Shown one piece after another: positions 20,620 through 28,249 of a stretch of DNA of 64,000 nt. Source of the DNA: Opitutales bacterium. GTDB taxonomy: Bacteria; Verrucomicrobiota; Verrucomicrobiia; Opitutales; Seribacteraceae. The notes beneath the pieces were generated by a model. The model searched no databases. It was not told the origin of the DNA and worked only from the letters and a program-made list of their open reading frames with translations. The DNA lies in NCBI GenBank assembly GCA_029254745.1, contig JAQWWZ010000001.1:1-64000 (forward strand). Direction: 5' to 3'. Within the stretch, counting starts at the first letter, position 1, and the number at the start of each line of letters is the position of its first letter. The translations under genes were made by a program, and so were the position numbers.

Positions 20620-23600
20620 ATGATAAATATATGCCTTTCTTTATTCAGACAAGGATGGTTAGGGGTGCCCATCTTTTTTATAGGTCTTGTATCATTAGCG
20701 TTCAGTCAATTTACAGAAGATGTGGTTGCCACTTCTCAATCTTCCGATGATTTATCTCAATTTATAGGTACATCTCTCAAGCAACTGAAGGGAAGGATTA
20801 GTACCTTATCTACCCAAAGCTCAGCAGATGCTTTTGAAGCAAAGTACAGTGCAGTAGACCGTAAACTTGCCACTTTAACCGATCAGAAGGAACAGTTTCG
20901 TTTATCTTCCAATTTACAAGCTGTTGCTGATGCATGGAAATTGCGTTCAGGAGATTTAATTAAAGGTATTTCTAGCGTAGAGGGCAGATTGCTGGAGGCA
21001 GATAAAATTTATCAAGATTTAGAAAATGATTTCGCGGGGCGAATGGATGAGGCGATGCCTGCCCTTACGGTTTTACAAGAGAACCTTCAACGATCATCTG
21101 ATGAAATTAACGCCCTTGATCAACTTTCCTCGAATGCAATCAGCGATGCTAATACTGGTTTTAATATATTGATTCGAGAAGTGGATGCAATGAGGGTGGC
21201 TCCCGCACCACCTATAATTCCAGTTGTTACTGCAGTTCCTCCTCCTGTGCCCTTTACAAAAACTGGGAGGAACTTAGCTTCAGTCATTCAAGCAAATGAA
21301 GCTGTCTCTCTAACTGGTGAAAATATAGGCTCTGCTATTCAAAGTAATGCCGGAGATGTGCGTCCTTCCAATCAGGCTCCTTCCACTCCGTCTGAAGATA
21401 TGATTCGCAGGCTTAGGGAAGAATTAGCAGATTCGAAAAATACAGGCACAGAATTGTCAACGGATACGGCAAACTTGCAAACAGACTTACGGAAAGCGTA
21501 TCGTGAAATTGTATCCTTACAGACAAACCTGCGTGAATCTGAGATGATGGTTAGCGAGCTTGAGACAACCAAAAATTCTCTCTGGAATACTTCCGATGGA
21601 AGATTGCCGAATGCAGACACCGTAAGTAGACAGATAACACAGCTGCAAAGCGATTTAGATGGGACGCGAAATGATCTTCGTCAATCGCGTCAATCCCTAT
21701 TGCTTGAGCAAGAACGATCCAATTCCATGATTCGTTCCGTTACTTCTGAACTTGAGCGTACGAGGAGAGAGCTGGATAATGCCCGTGTAGCCGCTGTCTC
21801 TTCAGGTGCTGATTCAGGACGCCTTTTACTCTTAGAAAGAGAACTTACACAGACCAAACGGGCATTACAAATGGCACGGAATGTACCTCAGGATGCCTCA
21901 TCTGAGACATACCTAAACCTCCAGGATGAATTGAGAAAAGCAATGGGTGAAATTGTGAGAATGCAAGTCGACCTTGGGGACAAAGAAGATTTAGAGAAAG
22001 AACTATTGCAACTTAGAAGTAGTTTGGAAGAAGTGGGGGCTAGCCCTTCGCGGTCAGCTAGTCCAGCCTATGTTAACAAACTGCTCATTGACCTCAATGC
22101 AGCAAAGAAGGAAGTTGCCAAGGCGAGAGCATCAAACCAACAAGAACGCCGACAACTAGCAGAAAAAGTCATTTCCCTTGAAAATGAATTGCAAGATTCT
22201 CAGATAGAACTTGAAAATACCAAGATTGGGCTAGCTAAAACCCAAGAGAGTATGGCCACTCGCGAATTTGAATTTGCTACCACTATTAAAAGACTGGAAG
22301 AAGACGCACAGCTTGCCCAAGAAGCAATAAGTAAAGCTGCATTGGGGCAGTTACCAGCCATTCCGTTTGTTGATGAAATGGAGAAGAACCTCGCAAATTC
22401 TGAGGCTAGGATGCAATCATTGGCCTCTCGCTTTGATACTGAGCAAAGTCGGGCCACCGAGGTGATAGATGGTCTCCAAATGGAATTAGATGCCGCCTTG
22501 ATTCGTCAGAAGCAAGCCATCAATGAATTAAATATTCGAGAGCGAAGTCTTGAGGGTAAAGATAACGAAATTGCCCAGCTCCGTCAGGAAAAGAAAAAAT
22601 TAAATGAAGAGCTTGATGTTGTTAAAGTAATTGCCGGGCAACTTAATGATTTAAATGAAGTTTTAGATCAGACCAAAGCAACTCAAAGCAATCAGACTGG
22701 AAGCATGGATATGGTTGTAGCATCCCTACGTGATGAACTAAATAAAGCAAAAGTGGAGCTCGTATTTGCTTTAGAAGAACGTGACAATCTTAAACAGGGT
22801 AGCTCTCTTGCGATTATCAACCTCGAGCAACAACTAGAGGACACCCAAACCCAATTGTTGATGGAAGAGGAAAACCTTGTCCTCCAAGCTAGGGATTCCA
22901 AAGACCTTCTACTTGAACTTAAAAGTGAGTTGGATGCAGCGAGAGATGAAATAGCTCGGATGAAAACTGCTGGCTTAGGAGAATCTGTCGAAACTAGGCA
23001 GGCGGTTTCTCAGCTGCAGGAAGCATTGGGGACCATTCGAATTTTGCAGGAAAGTCTCGATGAAGCCGAATCAGTCAATCTGGAAGTAGATAATCTTAGG
23101 TCTGAACTTGCGAATGCAATGTCTACTCAACTTAATGAGTTACAGCGGTCTGAAGATGAAAAGGTTAACCTGCAAAATAAAGTAAAAGATCTTGAAGCGG
23201 AAATTGCCATTGTACGTGAACAAGGTGTAGGTTCTAGCTTATCTCAAAAGAATTTAATTGCTGATTTACAGGAGAAATTACGGAGTTCAGATGCGCTTAC
23301 TTTAGACCTTGAGCAAAGACTTAATGATTCTGAGGATACAGGGATTTCATCCCTTGTGAGCTTGGAAAATGAATTGAGTAATTCCCGTGGATTGAACCAG
23401 GGACTTAGAGATGAACTTGCAAATATCCATAAAATAAAAGGTAAGACAGTTGACCTGCTTGAAAAAGAATTGGCAAATGCAATGAACCAGCTCGACGAAC
23501 TTGAAAATAGAGATCCCGCTATCGATGTGGATGCCCTTCGTCAGGAAAATAAACTTTTACTTAAACGGTTACTTGCTAAAGACGGTTCAAATCCGGCAAA

Positions 23601-26340
23601 TAATGAGTCGAGTGGGGACCAAAAGGGCACCATTGAAATGCTTGAGAGTAAACTTGGTCATGCACTCGATGAGTTGGCCAGAATTGAAGCAAATGCGCAA
23701 GGCTCCAAAGGTGTCATCGGAGTGAATCTTGATAATGAATCAATTTTTCGATTGGAGGATGATCTTGCAGTAGCTGAGGCAACTATCGTTGAATTACAGA
23801 CCGAACTTTCCAGTAAAAAAGGGACAGAAAGTAATGAAGAAGCAGAGACCATGGCTCTTCTTGAAAGAAAACTTAGTCAAGCCCTTGATGATTTGGACAA
23901 AATTGAGAAAACAGCCCAAACAGGAATGGAGAATGATGAGGTAAGCTTAGATAACAATTCAATCATCCGCCTTGAGGATGAACTTGCCAAAGCTGATGCA
24001 ACTATTTCAGTCTTACAAAATAATTTGGCTGCTCAGGGCGAAAAAACTGCCAAATTATTTGAAGATTTATCTTTAGCTTCTGAAAAAATTAAAGAGATGG
24101 AGAAATTGTACCAAGAGGGGCAACAAGAATTAATCAATGCGGTCGAAGAAATTACAAATAAAGAAGCAGAACTTGAACTGTCAAAAGCTATGCAAGGCTC
24201 TGTAGGCCAACCTTCTTTAGAGATTCCTGAAGATATTGTGATGGTTCTACAAAATGAGATAAATTTACTGAAGTCTCAACTTGATGAACTGAAGGTAGAA
24301 AATGAAGATTCTGTGATTACTAACAATCCTTCCATGGATGCTTTGCAGAATCAGTTACAGGATGCGGTTGCTGAAAGTATGGAAGTTCAAATGGAACTAG
24401 AGGAGACAAAGCAAAAGCTTGTTCAAATGGAGCAAATGCCGACAGGAAGCATTACGGATGATGAGATTAGAAACTTTATCGAAGATGCTAAAGAATCAGA
24501 AAAAGAAGCAGAGCAGAGAATTACTGAATTAACAAGTGCGTTAAAGGATTCAGAGGGTTTAAGGAAAGAAGTAGAGGACTTGCTGAGGGAGTCCCTCGGC
24601 TCCAGCCAAGACGATAATACCTTACAGGATAACTCTCAAATGATAGATCTTCAAGACGAGTTAGTGTTACTTCAACAGGACTTGTTAAATGCTAGAAATT
24701 TAGAAGATCCTCGTGTTAGAGAATTGGAAACTGAACTTAGCAAGAGCCAAGAAGATGGCACCCGATTAAATCTTGATTTTAAAAATGCCATGCAAGATTT
24801 TGCTCGATTGAAAGAACAGATTGAAATCCTTGAATCTGAGAACCGAAAGCTTAATGAGATTTCCTTGGTTCAGGCCCGTAATCAAGCAGGTCAGGCAAAT
24901 AATCAACTTCAAGTTGAATTAAATAAATCTCTGGGCGATATCTCAAATCTTAAAAATCAATTAGTTGACCGTGAGCAAAGACTTGATGCCCTCACAGAGC
25001 AACTTGCATTGGCCGAAAGCACTCGCCCTGGTATCGCACCCGACAGCTCGGCTTTAAGGGCTCAAGTCATAAGACTTCAAGGTTTTGCCAAATCTGCGAC
25101 TGATCGGGAAAACCAAGCTAAATTTGATGTACAAAGGCTAAATGGAGATTTAGCAGTTGCCCAGGGCAGAATTGCATCCTTAGAAGAAAACCTGCGTCAG
25201 TCTCAATCTTTATCCAGAGGGCTGCCATCTAGAATGTCTCCAATTTCTTCCGGTGGTACCCAATTACCACAGCTTTCCCCTCTTCAAATTGCAGAGCTCT
25301 CAACCTTACGGGAGCAAAACCAAAGATTACAGGAGCAGTTCCGCAAATTAGCCAATGCACCAGGTCGTGATGGACTTGATCGCCGCGTTCAAGACCTGAA
25401 TCAAAAAAACCTTACCTCTCAAATACAATTGGATCAAGAAAGGTCACGCGTACAGGATTTGCGTAAACAATTAGCTGATGCCCGAGGGATCAAGCAAGAA
25501 ATTATAGAACGAGGACAATCAGCAAATTTAAAAGTAAATTTACTAAATGAAGAGTTAGAAGATGCACGGGGTAAGATTGGCTCCCTTGAAAAAGCACTTA
25601 TTGCTGCCCGTGAAGCGATCCGAGTTTTACAGCGCGGAGGTACTGGCAATTCAACTGTAAACGTTTCCATTCCAAGTACTTCAGCTAGTCTGAATTCTAG
25701 TCGCAGGTCTACCCCTGCATCAATACAACCTTCTTACTCCGGAGCTTCAAGTCGCGTTACTGCCCCATTCCAACCAAGCTACAACAATCCAAGCCGCCGA
25801 TCTTCCTCATTTCAATCAACTTTACCAAGATCACAATATAATCCTGTAACTAATTCCTCACCTAATCCGGTAAGGTTCAATGCCCCTGTTGTGCAGAATG
25901 TACCGTCTGGACAGTCCACCATGCAGTTAAAGGCAGAAGTTCAGTTTCTCAATAATAAGAAAAGACCTGCTGGATTTACTGAATTCTTTTTAGTCCGCGA
26001 AAGCTTTGATTCTATCATGGAAAATGCCCGAATCAGGATACCCTCGAACGAGGGAATAAATTCATATGCTGAGTTTTGGGCCCGGGCAGTTCAACGCGGT
26101 TATCGATACCCAGGTGTTGCCGCTGCTATTAGAAATGCATTGGCAAGAACGAGCTTAACCCGGCTTAAAACTAATTCAATTGGTGTAGCTAATGTAGAAA
26201 AGCTTGAAAGTGGAAATTACTTCGTGATTGGAGCCTCGAGCTTGGGTCAGGTTGGTATTGTTTGGTCAAAAGCTGTGAGCTTGCAACAAGGCGAAAATCA
26301 GGTGGAGCTTGACCTTAGAGATGCGGCATGGGCTCAGTAG
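20620..26340 (+). CDS. Giant exported coiled-coil protein (1906 aa)
   Basis: A signal peptide (hydrophobic core at about residues 13-29, probable cleavage after AFSQ) is followed by about 1650 residues of almost uninterrupted coiled coil: heptads rich in Leu, Glu, Lys, Gln and Asn with many LEEEL-type runs. A 73-residue tandem repeat lies at about residues 1007-1152. A Ser/Pro/Arg-rich linker (about 1680-1765) leads to a compact C-terminal domain (about 1768-1906) with mixed alpha/beta character, ending in a beta-rich stretch (GNYFVIGASSLGQVGIVW). I recognise no named family. Export plus a long rod suggests a periplasmic or surface structural protein or tether; SMC-like or tropomyosin-like matches would be only compositional. 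There is no ATPase motif. The 3' end was duplicated downstream. Confidence 0.85.
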   Translation: MINICLSLFRQGWLGVPIFFIGLVSLAFSQFTEDVVATSQSSDDLSQFIGTSLKQLKGRISTLSTQSSADAFEAKYSAVDRKLATLTDQKEQFRLSSNLQAVADAWKLRSGDLIKGISSVEGRLLEADKIYQDLENDFAGRMDEAMPALTVLQENLQRSSDEINALDQLSSNAISDANTGFNILIREVDAMRVAPAPPIIPVVTAVPPPVPFTKTGRNLASVIQANEAVSLTGENIGSAIQSNAGDVRPSNQAPSTPSEDMIRRLREELADSKNTGTELSTDTANLQTDLRKAYREIVSLQTNLRESEMMVSELETTKNSLWNTSDGRLPNADTVSRQITQLQSDLDGTRNDLRQSRQSLLLEQERSNSMIRSVTSELERTRRELDNARVAAVSSGADSGRLLLLERELTQTKRALQMARNVPQDASSETYLNLQDELRKAMGEIVRMQVDLGDKEDLEKELLQLRSSLEEVGASPSRSASPAYVNKLLIDLNAAKKEVAKARASNQQERRQLAEKVISLENELQDSQIELENTKIGLAKTQESMATREFEFATTIKRLEEDAQLAQEAISKAALGQLPAIPFVDEMEKNLANSEARMQSLASRFDTEQSRATEVIDGLQMELDAALIRQKQAINELNIRERSLEGKDNEIAQLRQEKKKLNEELDVVKVIAGQLNDLNEVLDQTKATQSNQTGSMDMVVASLRDELNKAKVELVFALEERDNLKQGSSLAIINLEQQLEDTQTQLLMEEENLVLQARDSKDLLLELKSELDAARDEIARMKTAGLGESVETRQAVSQLQEALGTIRILQESLDEAESVNLEVDNLRSELANAMSTQLNELQRSEDEKVNLQNKVKDLEAEIAIVREQGVGSSLSQKNLIADLQEKLRSSDALTLDLEQRLNDSEDTGISSLVSLENELSNSRGLNQGLRDELANIHKIKGKTVDLLEKELANAMNQLDELENRDPAIDVDALRQENKLLLKRLLAKDGSNPANNESSGDQKGTIEMLESKLGHALDELARIEANAQGSKGVIGVNLDNESIFRLEDDLAVAEATIVELQTELSSKKGTESNEEAETMALLERKLSQALDDLDKIEKTAQTGMENDEVSLDNNSIIRLEDELAKADATISVLQNNLAAQGEKTAKLFEDLSLASEKIKEMEKLYQEGQQELINAVEEITNKEAELELSKAMQGSVGQPSLEIPEDIVMVLQNEINLLKSQLDELKVENEDSVITNNPSMDALQNQLQDAVAESMEVQMELEETKQKLVQMEQMPTGSITDDEIRNFIEDAKESEKEAEQRITELTSALKDSEGLRKEVEDLLRESLGSSQDDNTLQDNSQMIDLQDELVLLQQDLLNARNLEDPRVRELETELSKSQEDGTRLNLDFKNAMQDFARLKEQIEILESENRKLNEISLVQARNQAGQANNQLQVELNKSLGDISNLKNQLVDREQRLDALTEQLALAESTRPGIAPDSSALRAQVIRLQGFAKSATDRENQAKFDVQRLNGDLAVAQGRIASLEENLRQSQSLSRGLPSRMSPISSGGTQLPQLSPLQIAELSTLREQNQRLQEQFRKLANAPGRDGLDRRVQDLNQKNLTSQIQLDQERSRVQDLRKQLADARGIKQEIIERGQSANLKVNLLNEELEDARGKIGSLEKALIAAREAIRVLQRGGTGNSTVNVSIPSTSASLNSSRRSTPASIQPSYSGASSRVTAPFQPSYNNPSRRSSSFQSTLPRSQYNPVTNSSPNPVRFNAPVVQNVPSGQSTMQLKAEVQFLNNKKRPAGFTEFFLVRESFDSIMENARIRIPSNEGINSYAEFWARAVQRGYRYPGVAAAIRNALARTSLTRLKTNSIGVANVEKLESGNYFVIGASSLGQVGIVWSKAVSLQQGENQVELDLRDAAWAQ
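23638..24075 (+). repeat. Two tandem 73-codon repeats inside the coiled-coil gene
   Basis: Units 23638-23856 and 23857-24075 encode aligned segments with no gap through the first 33 positions: both run Leu-Glu-x-Lys-Leu, AL-acidic-acidic-L, Ile-Glu, Ala-Gln, then Leu-Asp-Asn and RLED-acidic-L. Nucleotide identity is clearly lower than for the downstream 443-bp duplication, so this is older. A weaker third copy may start at about 23458. Confidence 0.65.
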
Positions 26341-26355
26341 ATATTGTGCAGTCTG

Positions 26356-26612
26356 CTATCGGAACTGCTTTACAATCCGAAGATACCGCGACGCTTCGAG
26401 ATCACCTACCTTGATCGATTCCTGCAACCAAAATGCGGCTTTTGGGTAGTCAATTTGGACTCCTTTACCCAGGAAATATTGAATTCCTAGATACCTTAGA
26501 GGTTCAGGATGTTTATGGTTTTCCGCTTTTTCAAACCATTACTTGGAGCTTTAAAAATCTTTATTTTTATAAGCTTATAACCCAAGTGCATTTAAAGATT
26601 CCTTGTCGTTTA
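26356..26612 (-). pseudogene. Duplicated 3' fragment of the Sel1-repeat gene
   Basis: This stretch reads on the minus strand in the same frame as the Sel1 gene end at 26799-27055. The last 40 residues are nearly identical (VQIDYPKAAFWLQES, then EASRYLRIVKQFR and the same stop). Upstream of that, three sense codons have become TAA, so the fragment cannot be translated through. It has no start codon of its own. Confidence 0.88.
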
Positions 26613-26783
26613 ACTAATTCAATTGTTGTAGCTAATGTAGAAAAGTTTGAAAGTGGAAATTACTTCGTGATTGGAGCCTCGAGCATGGGGTAGGTTGGTA
26701 TTGTTTGGTCAAAAGCTGTGAGCTTGCAACGAGGTGAAAATCACCTGGAGCTTGCCCTTAGAGATGCGGCATGGGCCCAATAG
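26613..26783 (+). pseudogene. Duplicated 3' fragment of the coiled-coil gene
   Basis: The fragment repeats the final 57 codons (including the stop) of the coiled-coil protein (ANVEK, GNYFVIGASS) but carries a TAG where the parent has CAG (GQVGIVW region), plus several substitutions. It lacks the rest of the gene and any start. The original stop is preserved as TAG. Confidence 0.88.
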
Positions 26784-26798
26784 ATATTGTGCAGTCTA

Positions 26799-28172
26799 CT
26801 ATCGGAACTGCTTTACAATCCGAAGATACCGCGACGCTTCGAGATCACCTGCCTTGGTCGATTCCTGCAACCAAAACGCGGCCTTTGGGTAGTCAATTTG
26901 GACTCCTTGACCCAGAAAATATTGAATTCCTAGATACCTTAAAGATTCAGGATGTTTATGGTTTGCCGCTTTTTCAAACCATTGCTTGGAGTTTTTGAAA
27001 TCTTTATTCTTATAAGCTTGCAACCCAAGTTCATTTAAAGATTCCTTATCATTTTGTTCAGCACTATTTACCGATAGATAGGACTCATTTGAAGGGCTCT
27101 GGTTTGAGGCAATAGACTGACCAGGAAGATGAAGTGAAAGTTCTTGATTTGCATCATTTTGAGAAATTGATGATGTGTAGTCCAAGTTTTCTTCCGTTGA
27201 ATATTTACTTCTATTATCTACCTTGAGTGTGGAATTAACTGCTTGAGATGCGATCTCATTTACGGGTTGGTTTTTAGCAAATGTAACAGGTGCTCCACTA
27301 AGCCTGAGTAAAGTATTCTCATATTTTCTGAGTTGAAGTGCAGCTTCAGCTGATCCATTCAGGGTGGCTCTCCGTAGCCATTGTACTGCAAGCTCTAGAT
27401 TTCGATCCACCCCATCACCAAGGGCTAGTTTCATGCCCAAAGTAAGCTGGGCCATGGTAAGTTCTCGCTCTGCAGCAGCTCGAATCCAACGGATAGCAAA
27501 ATCGTCATTAATTTCTACACCATCTCCAATCGAGTAAGCCAAACCAAGATAAAACATTCCCAGTGGAATCTTTTTTTGAGCAGCCATGGATGACCATTTA
27601 AGTGCGATATTTGAGTCTTTCTTTACTCCAATACCTGCGAAGTAAATCATTCCTAAAGTAGCTTGGGCCGTAGCAAATCCAAGGTCCGCAGATTTCTCGA
27701 GGTTACGTAATGCCTTAGGGATATTTCGGGGAGGGTTATCCATTTCCATCATGCCCAAGCAATACAAAGCAAGTGGATCATGGTCTTTTCCTAGTTCTCT
27801 TAAGTTAGAGTGAAGGTAGGCTTCGTCATAAAGAAAATTGCCTCGTTCGGCTTTGCCTTTTTCAAGTTCAATCGCAGCAAGTGTGGCAAGACCAAATGCA
27901 CCTTCTTTATTGGCAGCCATACTGACCCAACGAGTTGCTTCTTCTGCATCAATGGGAAGACCATGCTCGCCATTTTTATAAAATAGCCCGAGTGCTCCTT
28001 GGTAATAAATGTCACCTTTTAAAGCTTTAGCTTGAATTCTGGCTAGGCTTTCCTGTAAAATTTTAGTTTTAGCGAAAGAGGAAATCAGAGGATTGACCAA
28101 AGTGAAACATACAGTTAAATAGAGAAGACTACGGAGTACATGGTATTTACTGAGTTTTTTATTTAAAATCAT
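26799..28172 (-). CDS. Sel1-repeat (TPR-like) exported protein
   Basis: 457 residues from the chosen start. A signal peptide or membrane anchor is at residues 7-34 (start at Met12 of the longest frame, which puts basic residues before the hydrophobic core). At least five Sel1-type repeats follow at about residues 45-290, with the typical A-x-x-x-LG-x-x-Y-x-x-G-x-G-V pattern (LGMIYFAGIGV, LGLAYSIGDGV, LGMKLALGDGV). A Ser/Asn-rich linker then leads to two more repeats at the C-terminus (LGIQYFLGQGV). Sel1 proteins are scaffolds that bind other proteins, often in the envelope. The gene is convergent with the giant coiled-coil gene, and its 3' end lies inside the duplicated segment. Confidence 0.88.
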   Translation of the reverse strand: MILNKKLSKYHVLRSLLYLTVCFTLVNPLISSFAKTKILQESLARIQAKALKGDIYYQGALGLFYKNGEHGLPIDAEEATRWVSMAANKEGAFGLATLAAIELEKGKAERGNFLYDEAYLHSNLRELGKDHDPLALYCLGMMEMDNPPRNIPKALRNLEKSADLGFATAQATLGMIYFAGIGVKKDSNIALKWSSMAAQKKIPLGMFYLGLAYSIGDGVEINDDFAIRWIRAAAERELTMAQLTLGMKLALGDGVDRNLELAVQWLRRATLNGSAEAALQLRKYENTLLRLSGAPVTFAKNQPVNEIASQAVNSTLKVDNRSKYSTEENLDYTSSISQNDANQELSLHLPGQSIASNQSPSNESYLSVNSAEQNDKESLNELGLQAYKNKDFKNSKQWFEKAANHKHPESLRYLGIQYFLGQGVQIDYPKAAFWLQESTKAGDLEASRYLRIVKQFR

Positions 28173-28249
28173 AACATTCGGGCAAGAATTGAAATTCTCT
28201 AGCAAATAAGCTTCAGGGCAAGACTTTTATAGAACTCCAAGATTTTACG

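Follow-up and report, generated by a model that had tools for sequence, protein, structure and literature searches.

Organisation of the convergent junction

The window (the whole stretch of DNA analysed here, 64,000 nucleotides) is the first 64 kb of a 115-kb contig (C9) in a draft genome of 2.45 Mb (72 contigs, 96.5% complete) from the Opitutales, an order of Verrucomicrobiota. Two of its genes meet tail to tail. The left one (20620-26340, forward strand), defined by its open reading frame (ORF) and translation, encodes a coiled-coil protein of 1906 amino acids and has three proton-antiporter-type (complex I-like) genes immediately upstream. The right one (26799-28205, reverse strand) encodes a Sel1-repeat protein of 468 amino acids (Pfam PF08238, 2.5e-33). 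The C-terminal part of the coiled-coil protein, about 150 amino acids encoded at 25888-26337, is a domain conserved in the family, for which we found no Pfam match and no significant PDB relative. It occurs in 40 of 42 family genomes, most of which have two or three genes for it: a single protein of about 1,900 amino acids plus one or two shorter ones, of about 400.

The ends of both genes lie in a tandem repeat of two 443-bp copies (copy 1, 26169-26611; copy 2, 26612-27054), which differ by 32 mismatches and no indels (92.8% identity) according to both self-comparison and Tandem Repeats Finder. The copies abut directly in the same orientation, with no DNA between them, as in a tandem segmental duplication. 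The repeat was retrieved in self-comparison with an E-value of 0, its 93% match is far above the chance level, and identity at an offset of 443 drops to background beyond both edges. Tandem Repeats Finder detected no other tandem array in the window. The first-pass annotation had already described a 443-bp tandem duplication across this junction; the duplication is real, but the frame proposed for it (26170-26612 and 26613-27055) starts one base late. The absence of indels stands and 33 mismatches are indeed counted in that frame, the 33rd already belonging to the right flank, as its first base; the 171 and 257 bases attributed to the two gene ends become 172 and 256.

Each copy consists of 172 bases of the coiled-coil gene end, a 15-bp spacer and 256 bases of the Sel1 gene end. 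In copy 1, the living end of the coiled-coil gene (26169-26340, forward strand) is followed by the ancestral stop-to-stop spacer (26341-26355) and by a dead end of the Sel1 gene (26356-26611, reverse strand), still matched by an HMM of the Sel1 tail (4e-38) and interrupted by three TAA codons (26539-26541, 26551-26553 and 26575-26577). In copy 2, a dead end of the coiled-coil gene (26612-26783, forward strand; HMM 2.3e-28), interrupted by a TAG at 26691-26693, precedes the second spacer (26784-26798, placed by the alignment of the copies) and the living end of the Sel1 gene (26799-27054, reverse strand). All four premature stops announced beforehand are thus confirmed, and with them the death of the two inner halves. 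It is equally true that the two living genes end in different copies: the coiled-coil ORF stops within copy 1, at 26340, and the Sel1 ORF within copy 2, at 26799. This is no special fact, since the left flank runs straight into copy 1 and the right flank adjoins copy 2, and geometry imposes the arrangement whenever a tandem duplication extends over a gene boundary. An ORF of 86 amino acids at 26433-26693 was rejected as a gene: it is merely an open stretch that runs antisense through Sel1 sequence, enters the dead coiled-coil end and is closed by the TAG there.

Single-copy state in related genomes

The duplication was read in one genome of its species. The relatives' genomes are records of uncultured Opitutales or Opitutia bacteria, mostly metagenome assemblies with some single-cell-style isolates. 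The convergent coiled-coil/Sel1 pair is present in 23 family genomes, the window's included, and 21 of the 22 others readable at the junction carry no duplication, with gaps of 2-374 bp; many of them have only 2-13 bp between the two stops. The closest relative examined, G017 (CALSTX010000004.1), has the same tail-to-tail genes in single copy, 13 bp from stop to stop. Single-copy junctions with both flanks conserved, as expected if the window holds a tandem duplication, occur in G017, G022, G005 and others, so that the single-copy state which the first-pass annotation had suggested looking for exists in G017 and 20 other family genomes.

Among 179 convergent ORF pairs sampled in the family (1.83 Mb of sequence, ORFs called crudely with a minimum of 100 codons), the median gap is 14 bp and the 458 bp of the window falls in the top few percent. 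The largest single gap class in this sample is a 4-base overlap (20 of 179 pairs).

Divergence of the copies and relative age

The 32 mismatches comprise 22 transitions and 10 transversions, giving a Jukes-Cantor distance of 0.076. They are evenly distributed over the 443 bp and the longest identical run is unremarkable (p=0.45), so there is no sign of recent gene conversion between the copies. Between living and dead sequence, dS is 0.11 for the coiled-coil end and 0.20 for the Sel1 end, values resting on small counts (4 and 9 silent differences, respectively), and the whole-gene dS between the window and G017 is 0.84 for the coiled-coil gene and 0.70 for the Sel1 gene. On these ratios, the duplication has about one tenth to one quarter the age of the split from G017. 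The event had been called datable, which holds in this relative sense and not for absolute time. The two copies are sisters with a bootstrap of 66%, in a tree where the silent sites of the outgroup are near saturation; despite this support value, the copy distances and the single-copy state of G017 agree in placing the duplication most likely after that split.

Changes in the living and dead halves

We polarised the copy differences with G017 as outgroup, whose near-saturated silent sites make some polarisations noisy. This mismatch count per half, also proposed in the first-pass annotation, gave, among derived changes, 13 amino-acid-changing and 2 silent ones in the inner, dead halves against 2 and 8 in the outer, living halves (Fisher p=0.0024). 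The living coiled-coil end has 3 silent changes and none that alters an amino acid, and the living Sel1 end has 5 silent and 2 amino-acid-changing ones. One of the latter, at 27020, lies opposite a stop codon of the dead half; its polarisation is therefore probably wrong, which makes the comparison conservative. Under the observed transition bias, neutral evolution would yield 72% amino-acid-changing differences, an expectation that the dead halves fit (p=0.26) and from which the living halves depart (p=0.001). All four premature stops are confined to the inner halves, and a G, an L and a Q of the coiled-coil tail, invariant in 26 of 26 relatives, are kept in the living half and lost from the dead one. 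Relaxed constraint is thus limited to the inner halves, which, having lost the coding constraint of the living copies, are pseudogene fragments.

A second duplication at the same junction

The remaining genome of the 22, G020 (JABGWD010000325.1, SI034_bin43), belongs to another species and carries on its contig C142 (locus L028) a tandem direct repeat over the same pair of convergent stops (L028 3423-3697, equivalent to L116 7902-8176). As in the window, two dead inner gene ends are left, the coiled-coil one with a frameshift and without its stop codon, the Sel1 one with changes as well. Unlike the window, the spacing is 148 bp, identity is 84% over 131 bp with small indels, and the motif CCTTG (about 5 bp) is visible by inspection near both inferred ends, so that the join was possibly made through this microhomology. 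The two lineages are distant (66% identity over the coiled-coil tail) and each has closer single-copy relatives, G017 for the window and L026 and L030 (about 80%) for L028; the two duplications are therefore independent events.

Two further tandem matches were discarded as junction events. The one in L070 is an in-protein repeat. The one in L132 (510-2340, G060:C11), a tandem pair of about 830 bp with 85% identity whose copies hold ORFs of 271 and 196 amino acids, respectively, lies in a stretch of uniform strand that contains a whole ORF, and not at a convergent junction.

Origin and fate of the duplicated block

Very probably, the tail-to-tail junction was copied in one illegitimate tandem duplication of 443 bp, which most likely postdates the split from G017, and the inner halves then decayed without constraint. 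Each gene body kept its adjoining copy, copy 1 on the left and copy 2 on the right; both genes thus remained whole, and the duplication would have been near-neutral. The inner halves, severed from any gene body, would have been free to decay, and the stop-to-stop gap would have grown from 15 to 458 bp. At the join (CGTTT|AACTAATTC, 26611|26612) any exact microhomology now visible is at most about 1 bp long; later mutation could have erased a longer one. Both the joining mechanism and the neutral retention of the duplication are what we infer. Since a perfect tandem repeat of 443 bp should initially be unstable, its persistence to 7% divergence could hint at some benefit. Insertion of a mobile element was rejected as the source: the extra DNA is wholly copied from the two gene ends and no inverted repeats were found.

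That the assembler joined end to end the variants of a single-copy junction from two strains might be suspected in a 72-contig draft whose relatives are mostly metagenome assemblies, all the more as the divergence of the copies is of the size seen among strains or close species. Such a chimera of two living junctions would, however, leave both halves of each copy open and constrained, whereas 4 of the 4 stops and 13 of the 15 polarised amino-acid changes are in the inner halves; the repeat also lies inside the 115-kb contig, away from its ends. We therefore hold this explanation to be highly improbable, and the earlier opinion that the duplication is no assembly artefact is strongly favoured by the pattern of living and dead changes. 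It is somewhat less improbable, although still quite unlikely, that the block was retained for a function, by spacing the converging transcripts, by providing a second 3' region or as a source of trans antisense RNA against both gene ends. The gap has moved from about the family median to the top few percent, and a second lineage acquired a similar block at the same place; against this stand the neutral change in the inner halves, the gaps of just 2-13 bp in many relatives, and a terminator and promoter scan of the duplicated block that remained at chance level (one weak terminator-like site, with 1.0 in shuffles, and no promoter-like site). As for antisense, the suggested extension of both transcripts with sequence antisense to the other gene would be nothing new, since ancestral stops 15 bp apart already gave cis antisense on read-through. 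Read-through would now reach the dead copy first, and the cis overlap would thereby be converted into an imperfect trans complementarity (19 mismatches over the 256 bp of the Sel1 end and 12 over the 172 bp of the coiled-coil end).

A further proposal, on the cause of the event and compatible with a single duplication in the window, is that the junction is a hot spot for straddling duplications, for instance because of head-on transcription. With two independent events, of 443 and 148 bp, at this junction among 23 genomes and none at the 178 other convergent junctions that were sampled across the family, Fisher's test gives p=0.013. The window itself prompted this test, however, and without it the contrast (1 of 22 against 0 of 178, p=0.11) is not significant. 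Moreover, self-comparison and six-frame searches with HMMs of both tails revealed decayed gene-end copies in no junction gap of 68-374 bp other than that of L028, nine relatives with such gaps being devoid of remnants. We accordingly doubt that the junction is recurrently duplicated, or that straddling duplications regularly lengthen tail-to-tail gaps in this family, perhaps through head-on transcription, and we treat the second case as a suggestive lead only.

Relation to known duplications and significance

Spontaneous duplications are frequent in growing bacterial populations, as described for Salmonella (PMC3411829). Like other small illegitimate tandem duplications of bacterial chromosomes, formed by microhomology or template-switch joins, the block analysed here is a head-to-tail direct repeat with intact flanks and single-copy relatives; it differs in that it is old enough to have diverged by 7%, contains two gene ends only and displays no microhomology that is still visible. 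Disabled native duplications are one of three listed origins of prokaryotic pseudogenes (PMC522871), and the inner halves resemble them in being degraded duplicates of native genes that are still living, and in carrying premature stops. They differ in that gene ends only, and no whole gene, were copied, on both strands and in one event. Our literature search found no paper on junction-straddling duplications in bacteria.

Taken together, the tandem duplication of the junction is a well-authenticated case: it is real, old and small, holds two pseudogene ends and is a clear, if ordinary, example of its kind. Its living and dead halves act as an internal control, by which the assembly is authenticated with no need for reads. 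Given the second case at this junction, one may ask if duplications of this type tend to occur where genes meet tail to tail. As a worked example, the block indicates how a partial duplication over a gene boundary can spare both genes while seeding non-coding DNA with pseudogene ends, and it illustrates one origin of bacterial gene fragments and of longer intergenic gaps.
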